In this document: positions 3,932-27,130 of the stretch, one piece after another | Layout: each line of letters begins with the position of its first letter | Position numbering within the stretch: the stretch's first letter is position 1 | Virus record (IMG/VR): IMGVR_UViG_3300031629_000051 | Coordinates: 1 to 28,555 of that record | From: a virus | Reading direction: 5' to 3' (one strand) | Length of the DNA: 28,555 bases | The notes under the pieces: generated by a model | Seen by the model: the letters and a program-made list of their open reading frames with translations, nothing else | Told to the model about the DNA's origin: nothing | Database searches by the model: none | Made by a program: the position numbers and the translations under genes

Positions 3932-4090
3932 CTATCTCCAAACCGTAAGCATGGCAGTTACGTGCGCTCTAGTGTGTGGGTATCCATGAGCTTCAAGAAC
4001 CATAACCATATTACTATAGCTATTGAACTCTCTTGACCATTGGTATGCTTCGTCATTTTTAAGGATGCTGTGTACTTGTTTTGCGTTCAT
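3932..4090 (-). CDS. 52-residue hypothetical protein, first gene after promoter A
   Basis: This is a short reading frame starting MNAKQVHSIL and ending TVWR. It is supported by an upstream GGAG eight bases before the ATG, by sharing the leader ACGGAGATTCAAA with two other genes of the operon, and by lying immediately downstream of promoter A and its hairpin. Its TAG ends five bases before the next ATG. Sequence features suggest a small helical protein (ILKNDEAYQWSREFNSY). Function unknown. Confidence 0.65.
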   Translation of the reverse strand: MNAKQVHSILKNDEAYQWSREFNSYSNMVMVLEAHGYPHTRAHVTAMLTVWR

Positions 4091-4116
4091 TTGAATCTCC
4101 GTTTTTAGTTTAAAGT
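4091..4116 (-). repeat. Conserved ribosome-binding leader, copy A
   Basis: On the minus strand this reads ACTTTAAAC, a short A-rich stretch, then ACGGAGATTCAA before ATG. Close copies precede the genes starting at 4534 (4535-4561) and 4866 (4867-4893). GGAG is the Shine-Dalgarno core, about eight bases from the start codon. The extent of identity, well beyond the Shine-Dalgarno, suggests a duplicated or selected translation cassette. Confidence 0.7.
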
Positions 4117-4138
4117 ATCAGCGAAATGTTTCGTTGAT
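4117..4138 (-). promoter_or_regulatory. 5'-terminal hairpin of transcript A
   Basis: Bases 4117-4126 are complementary to 4129-4138 except for one A-C mismatch in the RNA. The outer arm ends exactly where transcription from promoter A should start (about seven bases past the -10). A hairpin at the very 5' end of an RNA usually shields it from RNase E and RppH. An equivalent hairpin with a different sequence is found after promoter C. Confidence 0.6.
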
Positions 4139-4144
4139 GGGGTA

Positions 4145-4173
4145 ATTATATCATGTTCGGAACATTAATGTAG
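4145..4173 (-). promoter_or_regulatory. Promoter A (extended -10) with palindromic operator
   Basis: On the minus strand there is a perfect TATAAT (4150-4145) preceded by TGA, making an extended -10. A weak -35 CTACAT lies 17 bases upstream (4173-4168). The spacer holds the perfect palindrome TGTTCCGAACA (4154-4164), placed where a repressor would block RNA polymerase. It should drive the genes from 4090 leftwards. Host sigma-70 recognition is inferred from the consensus match. Confidence 0.75.
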
Positions 4174-4234: not shown

Positions 4235-4534
4235 TTAGTATGTAAATTCAGCAGATGGCTCTAAAGACTCAAGGTAAGCCTCAGTTACCCACCAAACTAC
4301 AGGACGACCTTCGTCTTCATCTCTATAGATAACATCTTTCTTTTCTAGTGATGATAGAAAGCCACCGATTGTTGCAGCAGTAAAATTAGGAGCTAACTCA
4401 AGATAGTCTTCCATAGACTTACATGAGAAGTTGTCTTCTAATAAATCCGATGCTGTCTTAGCGCCACAATCATTTTCTTTAAGTTGAGCATTAATAAATA
4501 GTTTTTCCATTCCTGTTAATTTGTATGTGTTCAT
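4235..4534 (-). CDS. Small winged-helix-like protein
   Basis: In this 99-residue protein, residues 1-50 contain two predicted helices (KLFINAQLKENDCGAKTASDLLED). Residues 50-90 look like a winged helix: FTAATIGGFLSSLEKKDVIYR as helix-turn-recognition helix, then a charged turn (DEDEGRP) and the strand VVWWVTEAYLESL. This resembles the MarR-like layout in which one helix chooses DNA and a wing follows. I cannot assign a family. It sits second in the transcript from promoter C and shares the repeated leader. Confidence 0.6.
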   Translation of the reverse strand: MNTYKLTGMEKLFINAQLKENDCGAKTASDLLEDNFSCKSMEDYLELAPNFTAATIGGFLSSLEKKDVIYRDEDEGRPVVWWVTEAYLESLEPSAEFTY

Positions 4535-4561
4535 TTTGTATCTCCGTTTGTGTTTTAAAGT
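4535..4561 (-). repeat. Conserved ribosome-binding leader, copy B
   Basis: Reads ACTTTAAAACACAAACGGAG followed by ATACAAA on the minus strand, almost identical to copy C. The TAA stop of the upstream gene (4557-4555) is embedded in it, so this copy has no promoter and would promote translation inside the polycistronic RNA. Confidence 0.7.
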
Positions 4562-4866: not shown

Positions 4867-4893
4867 TTTGAATCTCCGTTTGTGTTTTAAAGT
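4867..4893 (-). repeat. Conserved ribosome-binding leader, copy C
   Basis: Reads ACTTTAAAACACAAACGGAG then ATTCAAA on the minus strand, directly before the ATG at 4866. Copies A and B lie at 4091-4116 and 4535-4561. Confidence 0.7.
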
Positions 4894-4915
4894 ACCAACC
4901 TAAAGTGTGGTTGAT
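4894..4915 (-). promoter_or_regulatory. 5'-terminal hairpin of transcript C
   Basis: Bases 4894-4900 pair with 4909-4915 (seven pairs including one G-U in the RNA) around an eight-base loop. The predicted transcription start from promoter C falls on 4915, the first base of the stem. Only the ATCA start is shared with hairpin A while the rest differs, so structure seems more conserved than sequence. Confidence 0.6.
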
Positions 4916-4921
4916 GGAGAT

Positions 4922-4949
4922 ATTATATCATGTTCGATACACATGTCAA
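4922..4949 (-). promoter_or_regulatory. Promoter C, near-consensus sigma-70 early promoter
   Basis: The minus strand has a perfect -35 TTGACA (4949-4944), a 16-base spacer and a perfect TATAAT (4927-4922), preceded by TGA as an extended -10. The spacer element TGTATCGAACA (4931-4941) is an imperfect copy of the palindrome in promoter A at the same position relative to the -10. It drives the leftward early operon. Confidence 0.88.
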
Positions 4950-5025
4950 TAGAAAGTTACAAAAATAATTAAATTAAATACCCAACATCTATTTCAAATC
5001 TTAGTTTATAATTTCACCTAGAACG

Positions 5026-5062
5026 AAAAAACCCCCGAAAGTCTAGGAGACAATCGAGGGTT
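5026..5062 (-). terminator. Strong intrinsic terminator on the minus strand
   Basis: On the minus strand, AACCCTCGA (5062-5054) pairs with TCGGGGGTT (5038-5030). Inside is a second 4-bp stem GTCT/AGAC (5051-5048 with 5044-5041) and a three-base loop. The stem runs straight into a run of T (5031-5026). It lies upstream of promoter C, so it cannot serve the leftward early genes; it must end a separate minus-strand transcript from 5060-5700. Confidence 0.85.
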
Positions 5063-5669
5063 AAAATTAGGTGTTGCGCCACCTAGATACGTATTATACC
5101 CTTCTTGGGTTCTTATGGGTCTATATGGTACTTCACCTACACGACAGGTGATATGTCATTCAAAATGGATTCACTCACACCTGAATAAAATAACAGAGAT
5201 AGCTACAAACGTGTAAAGCTGTTGGTTGATGTTAGATTAAGTCATTGGTTTCTGAGGCAAGACTCGGACATGTAGAAGGAAAGCCTACAACCTTTGTTAC
5301 GAACTTATTAGGATAATACCTGTATAGTGTTTTAAATCTAGCGCATCTTTTCAGAGGTAGCGAACCCGAACAGGGTGGTGAAAAGGATGAGTCATATATT
5401 GTTATAGATATGACCTTACGATGAAGACTGCTTCGGCTCTTTATACGAATGTTAATCCTCAAGGTTATTAATTTAGCCTTGGGTTTTCTTCGCCCCGATT
5501 TCCCCAACTCCTCTCATTACCGAATATTACTAAACTGCTCTAGCTCTTGACTTACCAAGGGGATTTATCCCTCAGAGGAACGAAGTGACGAGCTGTACCA
5601 TAGCTCATGGTAACGAGGCTTGAGCTTGCTCAAACGTAGATGCCCCACAAACGATAGTGCGGGAGTTAG
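5026..5669 (-). ncRNA. Candidate large structured non-coding RNA, about 640 nt
   Basis: No convincing gene lies between 5063 and 5700. A strong minus-strand terminator ends the region and a candidate promoter (5676-5704) begins it. Many local hairpins can be read directly, given in plus coordinates: 5643-5648 with 5657-5663 (one bulge), 5620-5624/5629-5633, 5596-5601/5607-5612, 5560-5564/5567-5571, 5460-5464/5477-5481, 5391-5397/5408-5414, a 10-bp stem 5344-5353/5379-5389 capped by 5364-5367/5373-5376, 5169-5173/5182-5186, 5133-5138/5146-5151, 5098-5101/5107-5110 and 5068-5073/5080-5085. Possible long-range pairing joins AACTCC near the 5' end with GGAGTT near 5506-5511. Size, phage setting and hairpin density recall the giant phage RNAs GOLLD and ROOL, but I cannot match it to either by eye. 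Confidence 0.65.
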
Positions 5670-5675
5670 AGTGGA

Positions 5676-5704
5676 ATAATGTTAATTTACCTGTTCTAAT
5701 GTAG
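5676..5704 (-). promoter_or_regulatory. Candidate promoter of the large RNA
   Basis: On the minus strand, CTACAT (5704-5699) and CATTAT (5681-5676) are 17 bases apart. CTACATTA at the -35 is also found in promoter A, and GAACA follows in the spacer. Transcription would start near 5669, just before the first hairpin. The match to consensus is modest, so the start is approximate. Confidence 0.4.
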
Positions 5705-5710
5705 CCATAG

Positions 5711-5719
5711 TGATATAAT
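5711..5719 (+). promoter_or_regulatory. Rightward extended -10 promoter
   Basis: TGATATAAT is a perfect extended -10, the same nonamer used by promoters A and C on the other strand. No good -35 is present (CTGTTC at the right distance). A TGTTC half-site lies at 5692-5696. Transcription would start near 5726, giving a leader of about 23 bases before the ATG at 5749. It overlaps the divergent candidate promoter of the large RNA. Confidence 0.65.
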
Positions 5720-5748: not shown

Positions 5749-5985
5749 ATGGCTAAGCAACAGAAGGCTTTTAAAGATGTCAGTAGAACTATCTACTTTA
5801 ACTCAATACCTGTAGAAATTAAAAGATTAGGAATTACTCAAGCTAAATGTGCTGAACTATTAGGATGTACTCGTAGTGGATTAATGCACAGAATCAAAGC
5901 AGACAAAGCACAACTACATTGGGCGGTATATGGTCTTGCTAATTACTTAGGTGAAGACGAAAACCTTGGAGAACGAGACCTCTAA
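5749..5985 (+). CDS. Small Cro/XRE-like HTH regulator
   Basis: In this 78-residue protein, residues 28-48 form a helix-turn-helix: GITQAKCAELLGCTRSGLMHR, with the Cro/CI pattern of ITQ, then AELLGC, then the recognition helix SGLMHRI. A short C-terminal segment (WAVYGLANYLG) could be a dimer helix. It is the first gene of the rightward operon and lies beside the divergent promoter region, the usual place for a Cro-like switch protein. The TGTTC/GAACA elements in the nearby promoters are candidate operators. The leader has no clear Shine-Dalgarno. Confidence 0.75.
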   Translation: MAKQQKAFKDVSRTIYFNSIPVEIKRLGITQAKCAELLGCTRSGLMHRIKADKAQLHWAVYGLANYLGEDENLGERDL

Positions 5986-6110: not shown

Positions 6111-6271
6111 TGAAATGGTTCGGACATAATAAAAGACAATGTGTTACAGCGCTTGTAGGTGTTAAAGAGTTGTTAGATAGGATTGCACACATGAATGATG
6201 AGCAAGTAAGGAAACACACTTGTGATTCAGCAAAAGAGATTATTAATAATTTATTAAGAGAGTCTAAATGA
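6110..6271 (+). CDS. 53-residue hypothetical protein
   Basis: The start overlaps the preceding stop and the TGA overlaps the next ATG (ATGA). The product begins MKWFGHNKRQC and continues as a probable amphipathic helix (ALVGVKELLDRIAHM, then DSAKEIINNLLRES). No family recognised. The double overlap is the main support for its being translated. Confidence 0.6.
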   Translation: MKWFGHNKRQCVTALVGVKELLDRIAHMNDEQVRKHTCDSAKEIINNLLRESK

Positions 6272-6846
6272 TTGATAATTTAACCTTTGAAAAAAATGGA
6301 TTTTGTATCGTTAAAAATGTAATTTCCAAAGAATTAAGAAAGTTTATTACTCAATATGCTTTGTTTGATAGAATGCAGAATTTTGATATAAACTCAGAAG
6401 TACAAGTAATGGGTGCGTATGAAAAGTATATTGACCCTGCATTTGAAACTTTACTTTTAAAGTTAAAAGATACTATGGAAAAAAACACAGGACTAGAATT
6501 ATTACCTACATATTCATTTTTTCGTATTTATACAAACGGTACTGAATTATTAAAACACAAAGATAGACCATCTTGTGAAATTTCCTGTTCTATTTGTTTA
6601 GACTACGAATTTAAAGATAAACATTTTAAATACCCTATATTTATAAATGGCAACGAAGTATTTTTAGAGCCTGGCGATATGGTTATATATAAAGGATGTG
6701 AATTAGTACATTGGAGAGATAAACTTGTTTGTTCAAATGATGATTGGCACGCTCAAGCATTTTTACATTATGTAGATAAAAACGGACAATACTCAGACTT
6801 TGAAAACGATAAAAGAAAATCAATAGGTGGGAGACCTGATTTATGA
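6268..6846 (+). CDS. 2-oxoglutarate/Fe(II) oxygenase-like protein 1
   Basis: The 192-residue protein has the double-stranded beta-helix layout of 2-oxoglutarate oxygenases: HxD metal ligands at His97 and Asp99 (LLKHKDRPSC), the strand-turn LEPGDMVIYKG, and the distal His148 (ELVHWRDKL). The family normally has an Arg or Lys about ten residues after the distal His to hold 2-oxoglutarate; here positions 156-160 are SNDDW, so this residue is missing or displaced. Related proteins are frequent in aquatic phages, with unknown substrates (protein or nucleotide hydroxylation is possible). The gene is very AT-rich compared with the packaging genes. Confidence 0.8.
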   Translation: MIDNLTFEKNGFCIVKNVISKELRKFITQYALFDRMQNFDINSEVQVMGAYEKYIDPAFETLLLKLKDTMEKNTGLELLPTYSFFRIYTNGTELLKHKDRPSCEISCSICLDYEFKDKHFKYPIFINGNEVFLEPGDMVIYKGCELVHWRDKLVCSNDDWHAQAFLHYVDKNGQYSDFENDKRKSIGGRPDL

Positions 6847-7196
6847 TTGACCTAGAACACCAAGTCCAAGTAGCAATATGTCAGTACCTAGATGTCCGTA
6901 AGGTTCTTTACTTTGCAATACCTAATGGCGGTAAGCGTAATATAGTTGCTGCTACTAAATTAAAGAAAGAGGGCGTTAAATCAGGAGTGCCGGATTTGTG
7001 TATTATTCATGAGGGTCAAGCGTTTTTTTTGGAGATTAAAAGACCCGCTTCAACAGCAGGTGGCAAAGGCAGACTAAGCCCTGCTCAGATAGAGATGATA
7101 GGAAGACTTGAAGAAGCATGTGCTGAAGTTAAAGTAGTGTACTCAGTAGCTGATGTTATTGAGGCTTGTATTGATTGGCAGATAAACGTATTATGA
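6843..7196 (+). CDS. VRR-NUC domain nuclease
   Basis: This 117-residue protein is a stand-alone VRR-NUC domain of the PD-(D/E)XK superfamily. Motifs are LEHQVQ near residues 4-9, the IPNGGKRN loop, GVPDL with catalytic Asp51, FLEIKRP with Glu64 and Lys66, and LSPAQIEMI. VRR-NUC proteins cleave structured DNA such as junctions or flaps, so it may resolve recombination or replication intermediates before packaging. It overlaps both neighbours as ATGA and lies between two oxygenase genes. Its composition is nearer the core genes than theirs. Confidence 0.92.
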   Translation: MIDLEHQVQVAICQYLDVRKVLYFAIPNGGKRNIVAATKLKKEGVKSGVPDLCIIHEGQAFFLEIKRPASTAGGKGRLSPAQIEMIGRLEEACAEVKVVYSVADVIEACIDWQINVL

Positions 7197-7813
7197 GTAA
7201 GATTACCGTACATACACATCCTTTTCATTATATCGTTGTAGAAGACTTATGGAATGATGTGGAACATAAAGATATTTTAAATGAAATGTTAAATTTTGAA
7301 TCAAAAGGTCTTTTTTTAGACCCGTCTGAAAGTCAATCAGCTAAAGACGATGATGGAAAGGATTTAAAGAAAAATAAAGCTATCTTTATAGATTCAATAT
7401 TTAACAATAGAGACTTTTCTAGTATCTTAACAAAAAATAGAAAATTGTTTGATGTTTTAGATGATAAAAAAATGAAGGAATCATGGTTTTTTGATGCTGC
7501 CGTATATGATGAAGATACAACATTAGTTTCGTATTATGAGAATAGTGATTACTATGAACCACATAGAGACAAAGCTGTTGTAACTGTTTTAAGTTATTTT
7601 TTTAAAGAACCACAAACGTTTAAAGGTGGAGATATTACATTTACTGATTTTAATTTAACATTTAAAGTTCGTAACGGATTAACTATTATATTTCCTTCAA
7701 ATATTAAGCATGAAGTGTCAATGATAAATTTAGATAAAAAATATCAAGGAAAGCAAAAGGGAAGGTTTTGCATGACTCAATTTTTACTTTGTGGGTTAAA
7801 TGAAAAAATATGA
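7193..7813 (+). CDS. 2-oxoglutarate/Fe(II) oxygenase 2, prolyl 4-hydroxylase-like
   Basis: The ATG at 7193 overlaps the preceding TGA as ATGA and is preferred to a TTG at 7175. The 206-residue protein carries the full oxygenase set: HxD at His124 and Asp126 (YEPHRDKAV), GGDITF about 20 residues later, distal His173 (SNIKHEVSM) and Arg191 (KGRFCMTQF) for 2-oxoglutarate. The arrangement matches prolyl 4-hydroxylase-type proteins. The substrate is unknown. It is AT-rich (15 G/C in the 60 bases counted at 7621-7680). Confidence 0.88.
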   Translation: MSKITVHTHPFHYIVVEDLWNDVEHKDILNEMLNFESKGLFLDPSESQSAKDDDGKDLKKNKAIFIDSIFNNRDFSSILTKNRKLFDVLDDKKMKESWFFDAAVYDEDTTLVSYYENSDYYEPHRDKAVVTVLSYFFKEPQTFKGGDITFTDFNLTFKVRNGLTIIFPSNIKHEVSMINLDKKYQGKQKGRFCMTQFLLCGLNEKI

Positions 7814-8370
7814 AATTTAATACGTGGATTTGGGAAGCAGATTTACCCAACAAGTTAATTGTAAAAGCAAAAAAACTTGCGCTTAAAAACGGATTAGAAA
7901 ATAGTCAAATAGGTATGGAAGATGGCTCTATAGTTCAAGACAAAAACTATAGAATTTCAAAAGTTTGTTTTATTAAAGACAAAGATATAGAAGAGAAAAT
8001 ATGGAGATATATACTAGATGCTAACGCACAAGCATTTGGTTTTGATATTGTAAAAGATTTTGCTGTACAGTTTGGTGAGTATAAAGGAAAAGATAAAGGC
8101 TTCTATGATTGGCACATTGACCAAAGTATGATTACCGATAAATTATTAGATAGAAAGTTATCAATAGTTATACAACTATCTGATAAATCAGAATATAGTG
8201 GCGGTAAATTGGAATTTGAAATAGATGGTGAGATACTTACTTTTGATTCGTTTGAGAACAAGGGTAGTGTAATTGTGTTTCCATCATTTATTAGGCATAG
8301 AGTTACTCCTGTTACAAAAGGTGTAAGACATTCACTTGTTGCGTGGATAAAAGGACCTAACTTCAGATGA
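7810..8370 (+). CDS. 2-oxoglutarate/Fe(II) oxygenase 3, PKHD/PiuC-like
   Basis: The 186-residue protein has HxD at His102 and Asp104 (YDWHIDQS), the SGGKLEFE strand, VIVFPSFIRHRVTPV with distal His163, and GVRHSLVAWIKGP with Arg173 ten residues on. This set is typical of PKHD-type hydroxylases such as the YbiX/PiuC group, whose C-terminus also ends in a W-I/V-x-GP motif. All catalytic residues are present. The gene is coupled by ATGA to oxygenase 2 and to the YbcO-like gene, making three oxygenases within 2.1 kb. Confidence 0.9.
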   Translation: MKFNTWIWEADLPNKLIVKAKKLALKNGLENSQIGMEDGSIVQDKNYRISKVCFIKDKDIEEKIWRYILDANAQAFGFDIVKDFAVQFGEYKGKDKGFYDWHIDQSMITDKLLDRKLSIVIQLSDKSEYSGGKLEFEIDGEILTFDSFENKGSVIVFPSFIRHRVTPVTKGVRHSLVAWIKGPNFR

Positions 8371-9928: not shown

Positions 9929-10661
9929 ATTAAACTATAGATTTATTGATGAAAGTCGAAATACAAAAGATATAGCAGAAGAGTTAATAAAAACTATATT
10001 AGTCAAAGCAAAACCAACTTCTTCTTGTTGGTGGAGTAAGATGAAAGCTAGAGTTGATGAATATAAAGATAATATTGAATCAATTAAACATCAGCAGATA
10101 CAAAATTTAAGTGGTTTTAATATTGTTCCTAGTAATGGTGATGGCGCAACAGCAAAGACTTGTCCTGGAATACTTGGTCTTTTTAAGCAAACTATATTAG
10201 TAAAGTCACCAACAGAAATTATTATTACCATTAACAAAAGTGGTGAGTATTATTACAATATAGCTGACCCTTCAATAATAACAATATCAGGACACGAGAA
10301 GAGTCAGTTTTACCAAGAAGATAACATTTTTTTTAAAGATAAAATATCGCTAAAATTTGAAATTCATGTTAGATTAAAAACATCGGATTTTGGGTATATG
10401 TTGACAGACCCAACTTATCACAACAATTCAGGGTGTTTTATTCCTATGGGAATAATAAATGAAAAATATGGAAAACAACAAGAGTTAAATTTAATCTCTT
10501 TTATAGATATTCCTAAAGATAAAGAAACAACAATAGTTATAAAGGCAGGTGATGTTTTGGCATACCTTATACCTTTTAAAGATTGCGACATTGAATTTAC
10601 AGAGAAAAACTTTGTTTTTAAAAAGCTAACAACGAGGTTTCAACTTAAACACATGTACTAA
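9903..10661 (+). CDS. AT-rich cargo protein between terS and terL, DUF6065-like at best
   Basis: The ATG at 9903 has GAGG six bases upstream and is preferred to one at 9888. The 252-residue protein has a helical, basic start and a beta-rich core: FKQTILVKSPTEIIITIN, FEIHVRLKTSDFGYML, and near the end IKAGDVLAYLIPF. The 'fill a water-tight beta core, then AG-x-x-LAYLIP' pattern reminds me of DUF6065 proteins, which aquatic phages often carry, but the match is from memory and weak. Composition is extreme (9 G/C in the 60 bases counted at 10321-10380), like the oxygenases and unlike terL. It is probably a horizontally acquired moron. Confidence 0.55.
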   Translation: MKMLKKKSKLNYRFIDESRNTKDIAEELIKTILVKAKPTSSCWWSKMKARVDEYKDNIESIKHQQIQNLSGFNIVPSNGDGATAKTCPGILGLFKQTILVKSPTEIIITINKSGEYYYNIADPSIITISGHEKSQFYQEDNIFFKDKISLKFEIHVRLKTSDFGYMLTDPTYHNNSGCFIPMGIINEKYGKQQELNLISFIDIPKDKETTIVIKAGDVLAYLIPFKDCDIEFTEKNFVFKKLTTRFQLKHMY

Positions 10662-11953
10662 TGACTACAGAAAAGCTAAAAGCACAAATTAAAGTACCGC
10701 CTAAACTAAAACCTTTATTTGTAGGTGATGCTAGATATCGCATTGCTTACGGTGGACGTGGCTCAGGTAAGACAAGAACCTTTGCATTGATGACAGCTAT
10801 ACGTGGTTATGAGTGGGGCAGAGAAGGTAGGTCAGGACAGATACTATGTGGTCGTGAGTTTATGAACTCATTAGAAGATTCATCACTAGAAGAGATTAAA
10901 ACAGCAATTAGGTCAGTTCCTTGGTTAGAGGCTTACTATGAAGTGGGCGAAAAGTACATCAGGTCTAAAGATGGTCGCATCTCATATACATTTGTAGGAC
11001 TAAGACGCTCACTTGATGCTATTAAGTCTAAGGCTCGTATATTGTTGGCGTGGGTGGATGAAGCAGAGGGAGTAAGTGATATGGCATACATGAAGCTTAT
11101 CCCAACTGTGCGTGAAGAAGGCTCAGAAGTGTGGATTAGTTATAACCCTGAATCCAAGTACAGCGCAACCCATGAACGCTTTAGAGTGAATACTCCTGAT
11201 AATGCGCATATATGTGAAATAAACTACTCAGACAATCCTTGGTTTCCTAGTGTGTTGGAAGAGCAAAGACTAGAAGACAAGAAGAAGCGTCCTGATATGT
11301 ATGACCATATTTGGGAAGGTGGGTTCTTAATATTTAGTGAAGGCTCTTACTATACGACAGAGATGCGTAGGGCTAGAGATGAAGACAGAATCGGTAAGGT
11401 TAGATACAGTAGAGATAAGCCTGTCATTACAGCATGGGATTTAGGTGTAGGTGATTCAACTGCTATATGGTTTGCTCAATACATAGGCGCAGAGATACAC
11501 ATCATTGATTATTACGAAGCATCAGGTGTAGGATTAGACCACTACGCTCGCATACTACAAGAGAAAGGCTATATCTATGAACAGCACATCTTGCCACATG
11601 ACGTTAGAGTGAGAGAACTAGGCTCAGGTAAGTCAAGGCTAGAGGTATTAGATAACCTAGGCATTAGGAACGTAGAGATTGCTCCTATGCTTATGGTTGA
11701 TGATGGTATTCAGGCAGTGCGTTCAATGCTAGACAAATGTTGGTTCGATGAGGTTAAGTGTGAGAAGGGTGTTGACTGTCTGATTAACTATTCAAGAGAT
11801 TATGATGAGAACGGTAAGACTTGGCGCTCAAGACCGAGACATGATTGGTCATCACATGCAGCAGACGCTTTCAGATACCTAGCAATCGGCTACAGACCTA
11901 TGGCAGAGTCATGGGGTAAGTCAATTAAAAGAAACGTAAAGGGCATTGTGTGA
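10661..11953 (+). CDS. terL: Terminase large subunit
   Basis: The 430-residue protein is a packaging motor. The ATPase domain has Walker A GGRGSGKT (31-38) and Walker B LLAWVDEAE (128-136, acidic pair Asp133-Glu134). The RNase H-like nuclease has TAWDLGVGDST with Asp260, and HAADAFRYLAIG near 399-410 with Asp402, the expected metal-binding acids. The length is normal. The ATG shares its A with the preceding TAA. It pumps DNA into the procapsid through the portal (25031-27130) and cuts at headful or cos. Confidence 0.97.
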   Translation: MTTEKLKAQIKVPPKLKPLFVGDARYRIAYGGRGSGKTRTFALMTAIRGYEWGREGRSGQILCGREFMNSLEDSSLEEIKTAIRSVPWLEAYYEVGEKYIRSKDGRISYTFVGLRRSLDAIKSKARILLAWVDEAEGVSDMAYMKLIPTVREEGSEVWISYNPESKYSATHERFRVNTPDNAHICEINYSDNPWFPSVLEEQRLEDKKKRPDMYDHIWEGGFLIFSEGSYYTTEMRRARDEDRIGKVRYSRDKPVITAWDLGVGDSTAIWFAQYIGAEIHIIDYYEASGVGLDHYARILQEKGYIYEQHILPHDVRVRELGSGKSRLEVLDNLGIRNVEIAPMLMVDDGIQAVRSMLDKCWFDEVKCEKGVDCLINYSRDYDENGKTWRSRPRHDWSSHAADAFRYLAIGYRPMAESWGKSIKRNVKGIV

Positions 11954-11997: not shown

Positions 11998-14900
11998 ATG
12001 GGTTTATTCGATGCTTTACTAAGTCAAGAGGGTGTTAATTTAACAGGTGGTGGCTTTGTAGGCGCACCTGATGACAAGTTGATGGAGACAAGATTCGATG
12101 ATATGGGTAATGCCTATCAAGTAGACGTAAGAATGCCTCTACATCAAGGACACACTAAAGCAAATTCATTTAATATCCCTGACAATGCTCAAGGATTGTT
12201 ACAACCTGAGATGCCAACAGAGTCTATTGACTTAGGAAGACAACAAGTTGTACAGCCTTCACCACAAATGATGCAACCTGTACCACAATCATCATTCATG
12301 CCAGGCAGTCAAGAGTCAATGGCTCAGAACCAACAATCAACTATTTCACCATGGTCTCCTGAACAGACAGACTACACTGATGCTCGTAATGTTATGAGTG
12401 GATACAAAGGTGGCGAGAGACTTGCACAAAGAGATTCAGGCACATTCCAAGACTTAACACCTAACGCAGACCCATCTCAAGCGATGGAAATGTTAGCAAT
12501 GTTTAAGAAAGAAGGCAAAGCATTGACCGACCTACAGTTTGAAAAGGCTATGGGTAGTTTAGGTATGAGTGATGTATTAGCAGAGAATCGCTCTCAGATA
12601 AACAATGTTAATGAGTCAGTAAACAAACTGATGAACGACAATACTAATGACTTTGGTGAGCAAGTATCAGCAGATAGCTTTGGTCAATCAGACTATGACT
12701 TGAATCAGCAACGCCAAGACACATTAGACGGACTAATGATGCAAGACTCAGTAGGTGAGAGAGCAGACAACTCTATGGAGCAAATGTACGCTCTAAACGG
12801 AACTACACCTAATGTGATTCCTCAAGAGCCTACATTCAAACCTGACCCAACTGCTACTGACTTTTGGAATGAAGGTGCTGAGAGTACATTCAACACTAAG
12901 CAAACTATTGCTAAGATTATGGGTGTTGGTGAAGATATAGTAGATAAGGTGTTACCTATGCTTGGTAACACTACACCCGCTATTCTAATGAACGAGAGCC
13001 ATCCTAGAAATCAAGAGGCTAAAGACTTGTTCTTGAATCTTACTAGAGGCGCTACACAAGGATTACTACACGATTTACCACAAGGAACTATCGACCTAGG
13101 TGTTGATGCCCTTAACTATGGCTCTAATAAGTTAGGTTATGACAATGTGATTGACCCGAAAGACGCACAGATTATCGGTGGCGGATATTCAGAAGAGCAA
13201 CAGAAAGAATTTGAAGACAGCACAGCTTACAACCTAACCAAGTTTGGTTCTCAGTTAGTTGGTGGTTACGCAGGTCTTGCTAAGGTAATGGGTAATGCTA
13301 ATAGTGCTAGTAAGTTCACTAGGTTCTTAAAAGAGTCTATTGCAGTCAGTATGCCTGGTGGAACACTTGATGTAACTGAAGGTAATATCTCTGACTTAAT
13401 CAACACTACAGAATACAAGAATGCTGTTACTGAACTAATGGGTTCTAAGGTTGGCGATGATGCTAGTGCTGAGGAAAGATTCGTTGCTCGATTAAAGAAT
13501 ATGGGCGAGGAATTAACACTTGGTATGTCTGTTCCTGCTTTGTATAGTTTGGCTAAAGCAACTAAGAGTGCATTAACTGACCCACAAGCAATGTCTAGGT
13601 TTATGGATAAGTTCCCTGGCTTAGAAGCGCCTGTAGAAAAAAGTATGGTTGCTCCTGGTGTTGACGCAAGCACAGGTGTTGACCAACTAGGCTTTTACTC
13701 AGAAGCAGAGAACGTATTAAACAAATTAAAGCAAGAGACAAACCTTCCTAATGACGTTCAAAGGTTTATGAAGAAGAATGGTGTAACCGCAGATGAGATG
13801 CAAGATACAGGATTACTTGGTTATCTACAGACTGCTAAAGCAAATGATGAGCGTGTTACTAAGACAGGCTTACTAGCTCACATGGACAGCAACAAGACTA
13901 ATCTAGATGAGACACAGCATGTTGGTAGTTCAGATGAGGCGGGAGAACAACTTGAGCAACTTCAATTAGAGGACCCCTCAGATAACTACACTGACGATGC
14001 CTTCGATAATGCTAATTTTGAAGTTATGGAAAGCGAAAACCTAGAATATGAGGTTGATGAGTTTTTTGATTATAAAATTCCACAAGGTGATGTGTATCAC
14101 GAAAATCAGAAATCTATTATTTTAAATATGAATAAGTTAAACACAGAAAGATATCCTGTAAAAGCAGGTGTATTTGATGTGGATGGAAATATTGTTGATG
14201 AGAATATTCCTAGTTGGTATAAACCAATTGATAATGCTATAAAAGAGAAAGATGTTGATTTAATACCAAACAACTTAGATAATGATTTTAGAGATGCTGT
14301 TTACGAAATGAAAAACGAGGAGTACCTAGAAAACCCTTATTACGAGTGGAACGTAGGCATTGATGGAAAGGACTTTACCGCAGTAGGTAATGAAGATGTA
14401 GGCATAATGATTACAGGACCTGATGGTCAACATATTAATGGTGGTGGTGTTTACAGTATTAACGAAGCTAACATTCAGATAAGGGAGTATGCCTATGATA
14501 ATGATATTGGCTATAGTGCTTCATCAACCACAAAGTATTCTGATTACACCCAACCAGGACTAGATGTTGGAACATACAGAGAGATTCCTATTACATCTAA
14601 ACCTTTAGGTGGTGATGATTACAGAGGCGGTCATTTTGAAGAGGATAACGTAGTAGGTCATTTACGTGTATCTGATAAAACAGATGTAGATGGTAACAAG
14701 GTTCTGTTTATTGAAGAGTTACAGTCAGATTGGCATCAAAAAGGTCGTAAGGATGGTTATGACACCAAGGAAACTAAACTTGAGCAACAAGCTGTTGCAG
14801 AGAAGATTAAGCTACACGATGATGAATATATAGTCTATGAGAAGAAGGCTAAAGAGGTTGGACTTAACTTTAGAGAAGGTTCGGATGATGCTAGTATATT

Positions 14901-16023
14901 TAAGAACGATGAGCTTATTGGCTCTATAAAGACTAGAGACGATAATCCTGTTGTTCGATGGACTGAGTTGGCTATGTCGCTACCTGTTAATGATTTCAAG
15001 GTGTTTGACACACTTATGGGTGAGGTCAAAGAATACGTAAACAGAGGCACAGCACTTAGAACAGAAAGCAACAAACTACAGGGTGGAGTGCCTAACGCTC
15101 CTCTGAAAAATGACAAGTGGCAAGAGATGGCGTTTAAACGTGCTATGAAGATAGCATCAGATGAAGGTTACGATAGAGTTGCATGGACTAATTCACAACA
15201 ACAGGTTGACTTATACTCTGAAAGATACAGAGAGTTATATGAAAACACTTATGATAAGAAGATTCCTGGCATTGCTAATAAACTAGCTAAGAAACATGGC
15301 TCACAAACAGGCAAGACTAATATAGGTGTTGAAGAGTCAGATAGTGGCTACAAGAAAGCAGAAGTAAACTACATAGACATTACTCCTGAGTTAAAAACAA
15401 GCATTAAAGGTGGTCAGTCAATGTATGGCTCAACATCAGTAGCTAAGAAAACTGTGGGCGTAAGTGGTGGATTATTGGCTATTGAGCAATCTCAAGCAGA
15501 AGAAGGTGAAGGTCTATTAAGTGTTAAGAAGAAAGTAGAAAAGCCTATGAACGGTGTACTTGACGGTGTTAAAAAACCTAAAGTTGTACGAAATGTTCGT
15601 AGCAACAATCCTGGCAACATTAAAGACTTCGGCATTAAGTGGAACGGCATGACAGGCACTGAATCAGGTGGTACTGTAGCAGAGGGTGAGTTCGTAGTGT
15701 TTGATAAGCCTGAGAACGGCATCAGAGCATTGACTAGAGACCTAACTAACAAGCGTAAGCGTGGACTTGACACAATCACTAAGATTCTTAATAAGTACGC
15801 TCCAAACGGCAAAGAGAACGACACTAAGTCTTACATTAAGGATGTTGCTAGAGATGTTGGTATAGGCGCTACTGATAAACTATCAGATAAGAACATGTAC
15901 AAGATGATTAAAGCTATCACTAAGCATGAAGGTGGTAAAAAATCTTTAAAGCATTTCAGTGATTCTATTATCAAGAAAGGTATGAAATCAGCATACAAAA
16001 ATAAGTACCAAAAGTTCAAGTAA
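11998..16023 (+). CDS. Giant polyvalent virion protein with lysozyme-like C-terminus
   Basis: The 1341-residue protein begins with a Gln/Pro-rich, low-complexity region (about 70-130). Residues 340-470 are amphipathic and Gly/Ala-rich (GATQGLLHDLPQGTIDLG). Residues 560-645 match a helper domain of large phage polyvalent proteins (FYSEAENVLNKLKQ, GVTADEMQDTGLLGYL, VTKTGLLAHM). Residues 850-1050 hold the partner region: TYREIPI, GHLRVSDKTDVDGNKVLFIEE (around 890-908), LQSDWHQKGRKDGY, VPNAPLK and YDRVAWTNSQQQ. From about 1200, RSNNPGNIKDFGIKWNGM resembles the RNNPGNI-type lysozyme-like domain. It is probably injected with DNA and locally digests peptidoglycan. An AT-richer insert occupies about 660-830. 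Exact activity of the middle domain is unknown. Confidence 0.75.
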   Translation: MGLFDALLSQEGVNLTGGGFVGAPDDKLMETRFDDMGNAYQVDVRMPLHQGHTKANSFNIPDNAQGLLQPEMPTESIDLGRQQVVQPSPQMMQPVPQSSFMPGSQESMAQNQQSTISPWSPEQTDYTDARNVMSGYKGGERLAQRDSGTFQDLTPNADPSQAMEMLAMFKKEGKALTDLQFEKAMGSLGMSDVLAENRSQINNVNESVNKLMNDNTNDFGEQVSADSFGQSDYDLNQQRQDTLDGLMMQDSVGERADNSMEQMYALNGTTPNVIPQEPTFKPDPTATDFWNEGAESTFNTKQTIAKIMGVGEDIVDKVLPMLGNTTPAILMNESHPRNQEAKDLFLNLTRGATQGLLHDLPQGTIDLGVDALNYGSNKLGYDNVIDPKDAQIIGGGYSEEQQKEFEDSTAYNLTKFGSQLVGGYAGLAKVMGNANSASKFTRFLKESIAVSMPGGTLDVTEGNISDLINTTEYKNAVTELMGSKVGDDASAEERFVARLKNMGEELTLGMSVPALYSLAKATKSALTDPQAMSRFMDKFPGLEAPVEKSMVAPGVDASTGVDQLGFYSEAENVLNKLKQETNLPNDVQRFMKKNGVTADEMQDTGLLGYLQTAKANDERVTKTGLLAHMDSNKTNLDETQHVGSSDEAGEQLEQLQLEDPSDNYTDDAFDNANFEVMESENLEYEVDEFFDYKIPQGDVYHENQKSIILNMNKLNTERYPVKAGVFDVDGNIVDENIPSWYKPIDNAIKEKDVDLIPNNLDNDFRDAVYEMKNEEYLENPYYEWNVGIDGKDFTAVGNEDVGIMITGPDGQHINGGGVYSINEANIQIREYAYDNDIGYSASSTTKYSDYTQPGLDVGTYREIPITSKPLGGDDYRGGHFEEDNVVGHLRVSDKTDVDGNKVLFIEELQSDWHQKGRKDGYDTKETKLEQQAVAEKIKLHDDEYIVYEKKAKEVGLNFREGSDDASIFKNDELIGSIKTRDDNPVVRWTELAMSLPVNDFKVFDTLMGEVKEYVNRGTALRTESNKLQGGVPNAPLKNDKWQEMAFKRAMKIASDEGYDRVAWTNSQQQVDLYSERYRELYENTYDKKIPGIANKLAKKHGSQTGKTNIGVEESDSGYKKAEVNYIDITPELKTSIKGGQSMYGSTSVAKKTVGVSGGLLAIEQSQAEEGEGLLSVKKKVEKPMNGVLDGVKKPKVVRNVRSNNPGNIKDFGIKWNGMTGTESGGTVAEGEFVVFDKPENGIRALTRDLTNKRKRGLDTITKILNKYAPNGKENDTKSYIKDVARDVGIGATDKLSDKNMYKMIKAITKHEGGKKSLKHFSDSIIKKGMKSAYKNKYQKFK

Positions 16024-25030: not shown

Positions 25031-27130
25031 ATGGCAGAATTGAAACAAATGAGCGAAGACGACATCCAAGGCATTGTAAGTGATGCTGTTAGTGAAGCTG
25101 TTGACTTTGTAGAGAGTGAAATTACAGAAGACCGTATTAAAGCACAGCGTTATTTTGATGGTCAAGTTGACATTGGTGAAGAGGAAGGACGCTCTAAGAT
25201 TGTAGCAACTAAAGTAAGAGATACGGTAAGAGCAATCAAGCCTAGTCTTATGAGAGTGTTTCTATCATCTGACAATCCTGTTGAGTATGTTCCAAGTTCT
25301 CAAGAAGAAGTGTCTATGGCTGACCAAGCTACCAAATATGCTCATTACCGCTTCCAAGAGTTGAATGGCTACACTTTGCTTAACGATGCTATTCATGACG
25401 CTCTAGTAAAGAAGACGGGCATTTTAAAAGCATATTGGGAAGACTCAGCAGAGTCTAAGATTCATACATACTCAAACCTAACTGAAGAAGAAATGTCAGT
25501 CATTGTTAATGATGATGATGTGACAGTTATTGAGCAATCAACTGAAATGACAATGTCTATGGATGACTTCGGCATGGAAGCTGAAAGACCTGAGTACACA
25601 TTAAAGATTAGCCACAAGAAAGAATCAGGCAAGATGATGATTGAGTCAGTTCCACCTGAAGAGTTCTTTGTAGATAGAAACGCTAGAAGTATTACAGATG
25701 CTTTTGTAGTTGCTCACAAGACAGAAATGCGTGTTGGCGACTTAGTGTCTATGGGTTATGAGTTTGACGTTGTATCTGAATTATCAGGTAACTCTGTTGA
25801 TGACACATTCTCTGATGCTGAAAAGTTTGAGCGTAGTGGTTACTCAGAAGACGATGAAGAGCAAGTAAAAGACCCTTCAATGAAATTAGTAGAAGTTACA
25901 GAAGCATATATGAAGATGGATGTTTATGGCACAGGCGAAGCTACCATGCACAGATTCATCTTAGGTGGTGGTAATCAAGAGTTATTAGACTTTGAACCAT
26001 GGGGCGATGTTCCTTTTGCTGTATTCGAGATTGACCCTGAGCCTCATACATTCTATGGACGCTCTATTGCTGACCTAATCATGAACGACCAAGATTCATC
26101 TACTGCTATGTTACGTGGCATGATGGATAACGTGGCACTTGTAAACAACCCATCTATTGATGTTGTTGAAGGTCAAGCGAACATGGACGACATTATGAAT
26201 AACGAGATTGGCTCGATTAGACGTGTGAAAGTTCAAGGCGCTATTCAAGCAAACGCTATTCCTTTTGTTGCAGGTCAAACACTTGTAGCAATGCAATATT
26301 TAGATGACGAGATTCAAGTTAAGACAGGTGTTTCTAAGGCTTCTATGGGATTAGACCCAAGTGCTTTACAAAACACTACAGCAACAGCAGCACAACTTAC
26401 AGCACAACAAGGCGCAGGTCAGGTTGAAGTAATTGCTCGAAATATCGCTGAGGGAGGCATGAAGCGTTTATTTAAGTTAATGCTTAACCTTCTTGTAGAA
26501 AACTCTTGTGAAGAGACTATGATGCGTCTGAACGGACAATATGTACCGATTGACCCTCGTTCATGGAACTCATCTATGGATGTAACTGTAAACGTAGGTT
26601 TAGGCACAGGTAAAGAAGACACTAAGGCAATGGCACTTAATCAGACATTCCAAACTCAGATGCAGATTTGGCAAGCATACGGTCCTGGTAACGGTCTTGT
26701 GACTATGACAGGCATGCGTAATACTTTAGCAGATATGTTAGTTTTATCAGGTGTTAGAAACACGGATAGATACTACAGTCCTATGAGTCCTGAGACTGAA
26801 CAGCAATTAATCATGCAACAGCAACAAGCACAAGCTAATCAACCACCTGCTCAGTCACCTGAAGCACAAGCGATAGTAGAGGCAGAGACTATTAAGGCAC
26901 AGGCTAAATCTCAGACTGATATGATGAAGTTAGAGATTGAAGCACAGAAGGCTATTTCAGAAGATGACCGTAAACGCGACCAAATGGACCAAGACTTACT
27001 TGTAGATGCCGCTAAGATTTTAGGCGACCATGGTACAAGAGTTGACATTGAAAGAATTAAGCAGATGCAAGACGAACCTAGATACCCACAGCAACAACCT
27101 ACTCAAGCAGTAACGGGTGGTAGATTCTAA
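25031..27130 (+). CDS. Portal protein, P22/SU10-like
   Basis: The 699-residue protein is close in length to P22 gp1 (725). N-terminal KIVATKVRDTVRAIKPSLMRVFLSSDNPVEYVPSSQEE and YTLLNDAIHDALVKKTGILKAYW match the P22-like portal family. Later features are the VPPEEFFVDRNARS segment, FGRSIADLIMNDQDSSTAMLRGMMDN-like stem region (reads FYGRSIAD here), and a C-terminal Gln-rich helical barrel (EQQLIMQQQQAQANQPP). It forms the twelve-fold ring through which DNA enters and leaves the head. Confidence 0.93.
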   Translation: MAELKQMSEDDIQGIVSDAVSEAVDFVESEITEDRIKAQRYFDGQVDIGEEEGRSKIVATKVRDTVRAIKPSLMRVFLSSDNPVEYVPSSQEEVSMADQATKYAHYRFQELNGYTLLNDAIHDALVKKTGILKAYWEDSAESKIHTYSNLTEEEMSVIVNDDDVTVIEQSTEMTMSMDDFGMEAERPEYTLKISHKKESGKMMIESVPPEEFFVDRNARSITDAFVVAHKTEMRVGDLVSMGYEFDVVSELSGNSVDDTFSDAEKFERSGYSEDDEEQVKDPSMKLVEVTEAYMKMDVYGTGEATMHRFILGGGNQELLDFEPWGDVPFAVFEIDPEPHTFYGRSIADLIMNDQDSSTAMLRGMMDNVALVNNPSIDVVEGQANMDDIMNNEIGSIRRVKVQGAIQANAIPFVAGQTLVAMQYLDDEIQVKTGVSKASMGLDPSALQNTTATAAQLTAQQGAGQVEVIARNIAEGGMKRLFKLMLNLLVENSCEETMMRLNGQYVPIDPRSWNSSMDVTVNVGLGTGKEDTKAMALNQTFQTQMQIWQAYGPGNGLVTMTGMRNTLADMLVLSGVRNTDRYYSPMSPETEQQLIMQQQQAQANQPPAQSPEAQAIVEAETIKAQAKSQTDMMKLEIEAQKAISEDDRKRDQMDQDLLVDAAKILGDHGTRVDIERIKQMQDEPRYPQQQPTQAVTGGRF

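Follow-up and report, generated by a model that had tools for sequence, protein, structure and literature searches.

Antisense-controlled attenuation is known from the plasmids pT181 and pIP501, and the RNAs GOLLD and ROOL are often encoded near tRNA islands. No function is known for the latter two, which are large RNAs of phages (PMC12286853). For the cluster A mycobacteriophages RedRock, Alma, and LadyBird, RNA-based prophage origins have been reported, and the ColE1 mechanism is described alongside them (PMC7157519). Lytic growth stays normal when these origins are deleted (PMC7157519). Here, we describe a phage locus at which a large structured RNA and a small RNA are very probably encoded on opposite strands, and compare it with these systems.

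Gene context and distribution of the locus

The window, i.e., the whole stretch of DNA that was analyzed, is a virus record of 28.5 kb with the gene content of a tailed phage, and the non-coding locus sits between its divergent leftward and rightward operons (Table 1). No tRNA was found in the 28.5-kb window by ARAGORN. The GC skew reaches its minimum at the locus; as this minimum coincides with the switch in gene direction, it provides no independent support for an origin and was not used. The view of an earlier note on this DNA that no credible gene lies between ~5026 and 5704 was borne out, the longest candidate open reading frame not being conserved among the relatives. As a possible hidden protein gene, a minus-strand frame of 91 amino acids with a TTG start (5232-5507) was considered and rejected; the aligned stretch contains stops in all three minus-strand frames in 41 of 41 relatives.

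Some further features of the window were recorded. Similar leader/promoter segments (4090-4159, 4531-4561, and 4867-4936; 70 bp at 81% identity) precede successive genes of the leftward operon. Two adjacent 2OG-Fe(II) oxygenase-like proteins are encoded at 7175-8370, and relatives of the proteins at 7810-8370 and 6268-6846 occur in the tail region of three RNA-bearing genomes (G001-G003). Between the terminase and the tail genes lies a gene (11998-16023) for a 1341-aa protein without Pfam match.

Table 1. Features of the window and of the RNA locus, with their positions, strands and supporting observations.
Feature	Position	Strand	Observations
Terminase	10661-11953		
Portal	25031-27130		
Leftward early operon			Includes SSB and an Erf-like protein
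Rightward operon			First gene is a 78-aa HTH-like gene at 5749
HTH gene promoter	extended -10 TGATATAAT at 5711-5719; -10 box ATTATATCA at 5714-5719	+	Conserved in alignments
Large structured non-coding RNA, ~470 nt (predicted transcript)	5019-5488 (both ends predicted)	+	Covariation-supported core 5137-5416
Candidate promoter of large RNA	5004-5012; -10 TATAAT 5007-5012	+	Block around CTTRGTTTAKARTT conserved in most relatives; -35 weak
Stem A (5138-5143/5210-5215) around hairpin B (5145-5183)	5137-5215	+	Helices 1-3; 13 of 17 pairs changed on both sides
Possible long-range helix C (5196-5200/5455-5459)	5196-5459	+	Conserved, 94.8% of cells paired; no double changes
Pseudoknot D (5201-5206/5357-5361)	5201-5361	+	Helix 5; double changes in 4 of 5 pairs, one of which occurs as GC, CG, AU, and UG
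Stem G (5231-5236/5337-5342), closing a variable insert	5231-5342	+	Helix 6; 6 of 6 pairs with double changes, 98.8% paired
Domain F-E: two hairpins and kissing loop (5368-5372/5400-5405)	5344-5416	+	Helices 8-11
Terminator-like hairpin with U-rich tail	about 5456-5488	+	Scan of the window
Small RNA, ~60 nt: loop hairpin (GGUGGCGCAACACC) and intrinsic terminator	5086-5026	-	Two-hairpin fold, terminator-stem covariation
Small RNA promoter	-10 TATAAT 5098-5093; -35-like TAGACC 5123-5118	-	~30-60 bases upstream of the terminator; conserved

Relatives were collected from loci with a related terminase, among which the intergenic region itself is conserved, then by scanning IMG/VR for exact patterns taken from conserved motifs, and finally by nhmmer with the resulting profile. 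This yielded 129 loci at E <= 1e-6 (window included), and two more were added later. The loci are distributed over ~125 IMG/VR contigs, some of which carry more than one locus, and comprise 65 sequences after dereplication at 96%. In every relative the locus is non-coding and adjoins a small HTH gene. None of the Rfam families reached its gathering threshold in the window or in nine relatives, and searches of three members at E up to 10 gave no credible relative, with GOLLD, ROOL, and RNAI not listed; the earlier note, too, had not been able to match the region to GOLLD or ROOL. Searches of the INPHARED phage isolates (blastn) and of the PLSDB plasmids yielded nothing credible. Among the 84,980 species genomes of GTDB, a stricter pattern gave no hits, while a looser one gave 118 loci, none with a profile match better than E 0.025. 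Isolates related by portal or terminase (Octadecabacter DB virus 2 and Sulfitobacter pCB2047-A) contain no comparable large gap between divergent operons, and no description of this RNA was found in the literature or in annotated records. The large RNA is a new RNA family, absent from Rfam. Neither ParA/ParB nor an integrase was present among the Pfam/PHROG matches of the early genes scanned. Since no integrase was found there and no copy was found in the species genomes, the phages carrying this RNA are probably lytic.

A large plus-strand RNA and a small opposing RNA

To assess the fold of the large RNA, 42 relatives were aligned in plus orientation with MAFFT, without use of structure (A2). 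Covarying base pairs, which had been anticipated among relatives, are present in this alignment: RNAalifold predicted 44 pairs, 31 of them with changes on both sides. The named structure comprises 66 pairs, among them those of two long-range helices and of the kissing loop; it is paired in 95.4% of cells across the 42 sequences and shows double changes at 47 pairs. Its covariation score of 0.403 compares with 0.159 +/- 0.006 for shuffled data, in which none of 500 reached the observed value. When one side of the helices was moved by 1-3 columns, the score was at most 0.092, a control that favors the 66-pair structure because this structure was derived from the same sequences. The size of the difference, together with changes of whole stems such as the replacement of AGGUG/CACCU by CUGUAG/CUACAG in the stem A/hairpin B region of three relatives (L142, L143, and L161), is hard to explain otherwise. 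In a tree-based covariation test, many of the top pairs were Watson-Crick and fell into helices. Under a strict tree null only six column pairs reached E <= 0.05, four of which are Watson-Crick pairs in helices; this low number is probably due to deep splits in the tree, and the conclusion on the fold is drawn from the test of the named structure and not from the strict null.

With regard to the strand, the non-Watson-Crick cells in plus orientation comprised 157 G-U vs. 62 A-C. Of these 62, 42 belong to one outer column pair, which was then dropped, leaving 157 G-U vs. 20 A-C, compared with about 333 vs. 285 for random partners. Covariation and the bias for G-U over A-C therefore place the large RNA on the plus strand and, at the level of comparative sequence analysis, establish its fold. 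Folded as a single sequence, the plus strand from 5019 to 5488 gives z = -3.10, with 0 of 100 shuffles as good.

The earlier note had proposed one large ornate RNA of 640 nt on the minus strand, running from a promoter at 5676-5704 to a terminator at 5026. That a large ornate non-coding RNA exists in the divergent region has been upheld; its strand, its boundaries, and the assignment of the terminator have not, and two RNAs on opposite strands had been merged into one. The feature which speaks for this version, the minus-strand terminator (5062-5026), is real: exactly two hairpins are formed by a 71-nt RNA with this 3' end (z = -5.8, 0 of 200 shuffles), and the terminator stem covaries. However, it has a nearer promoter and belongs to a separate small RNA. 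A minus-strand RNA spanning the whole region (~690 nt) folds no better than chance (z = -0.55; 6 of 20 shuffled sequences folded as well), and the strand bias points to plus. The supposed promoter is missing from the promoter scan, no conserved promoter exists at this position, and the conserved ATTATATCA just beyond it is the plus-strand -10 of the HTH gene. All this makes a single minus-strand RNA from ~5704 to 5026 hardly tenable.

The small RNA itself recurs in nearly all relatives as an RNA of 60-70 nt that combines one loop hairpin with an intrinsic terminator, and its stems and loops have diverged. Its promoter is of the sigma70 type in nearly every relative, with TTGCCA-N16-TATAAT or a near variant in most and TAGACC-N19-TATAAT in the window. 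The terminator stem carries double changes in five of six pairs and, in minus orientation, contains 75 G-U vs. 4 A-C; in the loop hairpin, pairing is kept with different stems (GGUG/CACC, GCAG/CUGC, and GUAG/CUAC). These comparisons establish a small RNA with its terminator. At 5086-5026 it is predicted to match, without mispairs, the beginning of a large RNA starting near 5019, and the complementary region would lie, in 5' to 3' direction, between the candidate -10 of the large RNA, which is good in the clade of the window, and stem A. As it depends on this presumed start and on a promoter with a weak -35, the overlap is a prediction. The anatomy of a large plus-strand RNA and a small opposing RNA is nevertheless very probable, the exact starts and ends of the transcripts, and hence their overlap, being read from the sequence.

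Within the large RNA, the insert closed by stem G is clade-specific and varies in length between clades, and the kissing loop AUUACA/UGUAAU is replaced by AUCAUA/UAUGAU in another clade. A covariance model built from domain F-E (R1) finds members, including the window at E 7.6e-12, the window being part of the training set. A terminator-like hairpin of diverse sequence and about -12 to -22 kcal/mol follows on the plus strand in 41 of 42 relatives (in the remaining one, L193, the compared stretch was clipped). In most relatives a AUUUCUUU-like tail is located behind this hairpin, which likely represents the 3' end of the large RNA.

At position 5553-5572, a conserved and covarying hairpin (AGGGATAAATCCC, minus strand) is followed by a T-run in most relatives, which suggests that a third RNA, short and on the minus strand, terminates here. 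Just left of the equivalent hairpin, four relatives (L086, L114, L120, and L122) contain short direct repeats of GCTCTT (two to four copies) beside an A-run.

The 3' arm of helix C, a helix without covariation support as it contains no double changes, overlaps the terminator-like hairpin in most relatives. This overlap would suit an attenuator, in which the small RNA decides between a stop of rightward transcription at the hairpin near 5458-5487 and read-through into the right operon, beginning with the HTH gene. Two pairings are open to the conserved AUCUC arm in most relatives, one with the upstream GAGAU (helix C) and the other within the terminator-like hairpin, and comparable alternative pairing is found in plasmid attenuators. 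Such a function is nonetheless improbable in view of helix C lacking covariation, of an inverted arrangement in one group of relatives, and of the well-conserved promoter TGATATAAT (5711-5719) of the HTH gene. Since this gene has a promoter of its own, the large RNA need not be its leader.

The inverted arrangement is seen in L011 and in two loci nearly identical to it, L367 and L370. In these, the segment that carries the small RNA together with its promoter and the TTAGTTTATAATTT block has the opposite orientation with respect to the HTH gene, while both flanks, i.e., the left-operon promoter and the HTH side, keep their orientation. The candidate promoter block of the large RNA is retained in L011 beside the small-RNA terminator. 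Inversion between unchanged flanks fits an autonomous element better than the leader of one gene. In these three loci the inverted module (L011 3510-3635) adjoins ~400 bases of unrelated non-coding sequence (z -1.62), which may be a different large RNA; the covariance model R1 (domain F-E) gives no match in L011.

Possible functions of the RNA pair

A large folded RNA the 5' end of which is predicted to be covered by an antisense RNA, in a genome without a recognized initiator, is the arrangement of ColE1, and RNA-based origins are known from mycobacteriophages. For these reasons, our leading reading, albeit a tentative one, is that the locus is a ColE1-like, RNA-initiated, and antisense-controlled phage replication origin. 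According to this reading, the large RNA would be transcribed rightward on the plus strand from ~5019 to 5488 and the small RNA leftward over its 5' end, terminating at 5026. The large RNA would fold and stay on its template DNA as a primer for the host polymerase. By attaching to the loops at the 5' end of the large RNA, the small antisense RNA would divert this folding and set the frequency of initiation. A phage without initiator, helicase, primase, and polymerase of its own could thereby start replication with host enzymes. It is possible, though far from assured, that lytic replication proceeds in this way without any phage initiator protein, with a pseudoknotted RNA of ~470 nt priming DNA synthesis by the host. 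A small antisense RNA, the loops of which change rapidly, would then set both the rate and the compatibility between related phages.

The gene content of RNA-bearing phages is consistent with this. The genomes G001-G003 (39-41 kb) encode structural proteins and, among the early genes, SSB, HNH/YbcO, VRR nuclease, NinB, DUF932, DNA methylase, and winged-helix proteins; family searches, in which several early proteins matched no family, recognized neither an initiator nor a helicase, primase, or polymerase. In 20 RNA-bearing records, none of the families Prim-Pol, DNA_pol_A, ResIII, and DnaB_C occurs. Two terminase relatives without the RNA (L014 and L052) encode a Prim-Pol/DUF5906 protein and a DNA polymerase, whereas most other RNA-lacking relatives likewise contain none of the four replication families searched. 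A general rule that replication genes are present where the RNA is absent was therefore discarded; it holds for L014 and L052, fails in most of the others, and is only suggestive. An unassigned early protein of 223 amino acids was also considered as an initiator and set aside, as its motif appears to resemble that of Erf-type annealing proteins. Against an origin also stand the weak -35 of the large RNA's promoter and the terminator-like hairpin that apparently forms the end of this RNA, a feature dispensable for a primer. In L011, moreover, the large RNA itself is not recognizable.

Alternatively, the large RNA could be a separate ornate RNA with a function in trans, such as a scaffold, sequestering agent, or host-takeover factor in the style of GOLLD, ROOL, or OLE, and the small antisense RNA could adjust its level. 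The terminator-like end, the compact pseudoknotted fold with its kissing loop, the intergenic position, and the phage-only distribution agree with such a role, as does the existence of GOLLD and ROOL as large phage RNAs (PMC12286853). On the other hand, it leaves the apparent lack of replication genes unexplained, and neither a match to GOLLD, ROOL, or any other Rfam family nor a tRNA island in the window connects the locus with these RNAs. To our knowledge, an antisense RNA dedicated to the 5' end has moreover not been described for those RNAs. We regard a trans-acting RNA as a doubtful, though serious, alternative.

Comparison with known systems

With attenuation in pT181 and pIP501 the locus shares a leader that is covered by an antisense RNA and contains both alternative helices and a terminator. 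It differs from these plasmids in that no recognized initiator gene follows the phage RNA, that the HTH gene downstream has its own promoter, and that the module is inverted in L011. Like GOLLD and ROOL, the large RNA is large, pseudoknotted, and phage-encoded. In contrast to them, however, it is shorter, has a conserved opposing small RNA, has no tRNAs nearby, and is not matched by their covariance models.

The likeness to RNA I and RNA II of ColE1 extends to a small antisense RNA that ends in a terminator and is predicted to overlie a large structured RNA at its 5' end, to two opposed promoters, to the conserved secondary structure of the large RNA, and to the absence of a recognized initiator protein from the phage genome, in which several early proteins matched no family. 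Differences are that the phage RNA has no match to the Rfam family RNAI (E up to 10), that it apparently ends in a terminator, and that the locus lies within a 40-kb phage. In ColE1, DNA synthesis is primed by an RNA processed by RNase H, a role that is only predicted for the phage RNA. In addition, we know of no pseudoknots and kissing loop in RNA II like those of the large phage RNA.

The mycobacteriophage origins resemble the locus as phage regions of ~600 bp which express a non-coding RNA and contain no replication initiator gene (PMC7157519). These origins, however, are placed next to parABS and serve temperate extrachromosomal prophages, and no small antisense partner is described for them in the passages considered here (PMC7157519). 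In sequence, too, they differ, as the window locus has no credible blastn match to any INPHARED record.

A large RNA with pseudoknots and a kissing loop, supported by covariation and absent from Rfam, is thus present in more than 100 environmental phage contigs. If it is part of an origin, it would represent RNA-initiated, antisense-controlled replication for the lytic growth of tailed phages without recognizable replication genes, and the question of how such phages replicate would become directly testable. While the RNA family is new, its mechanism would in that case be a variation of an already known type.
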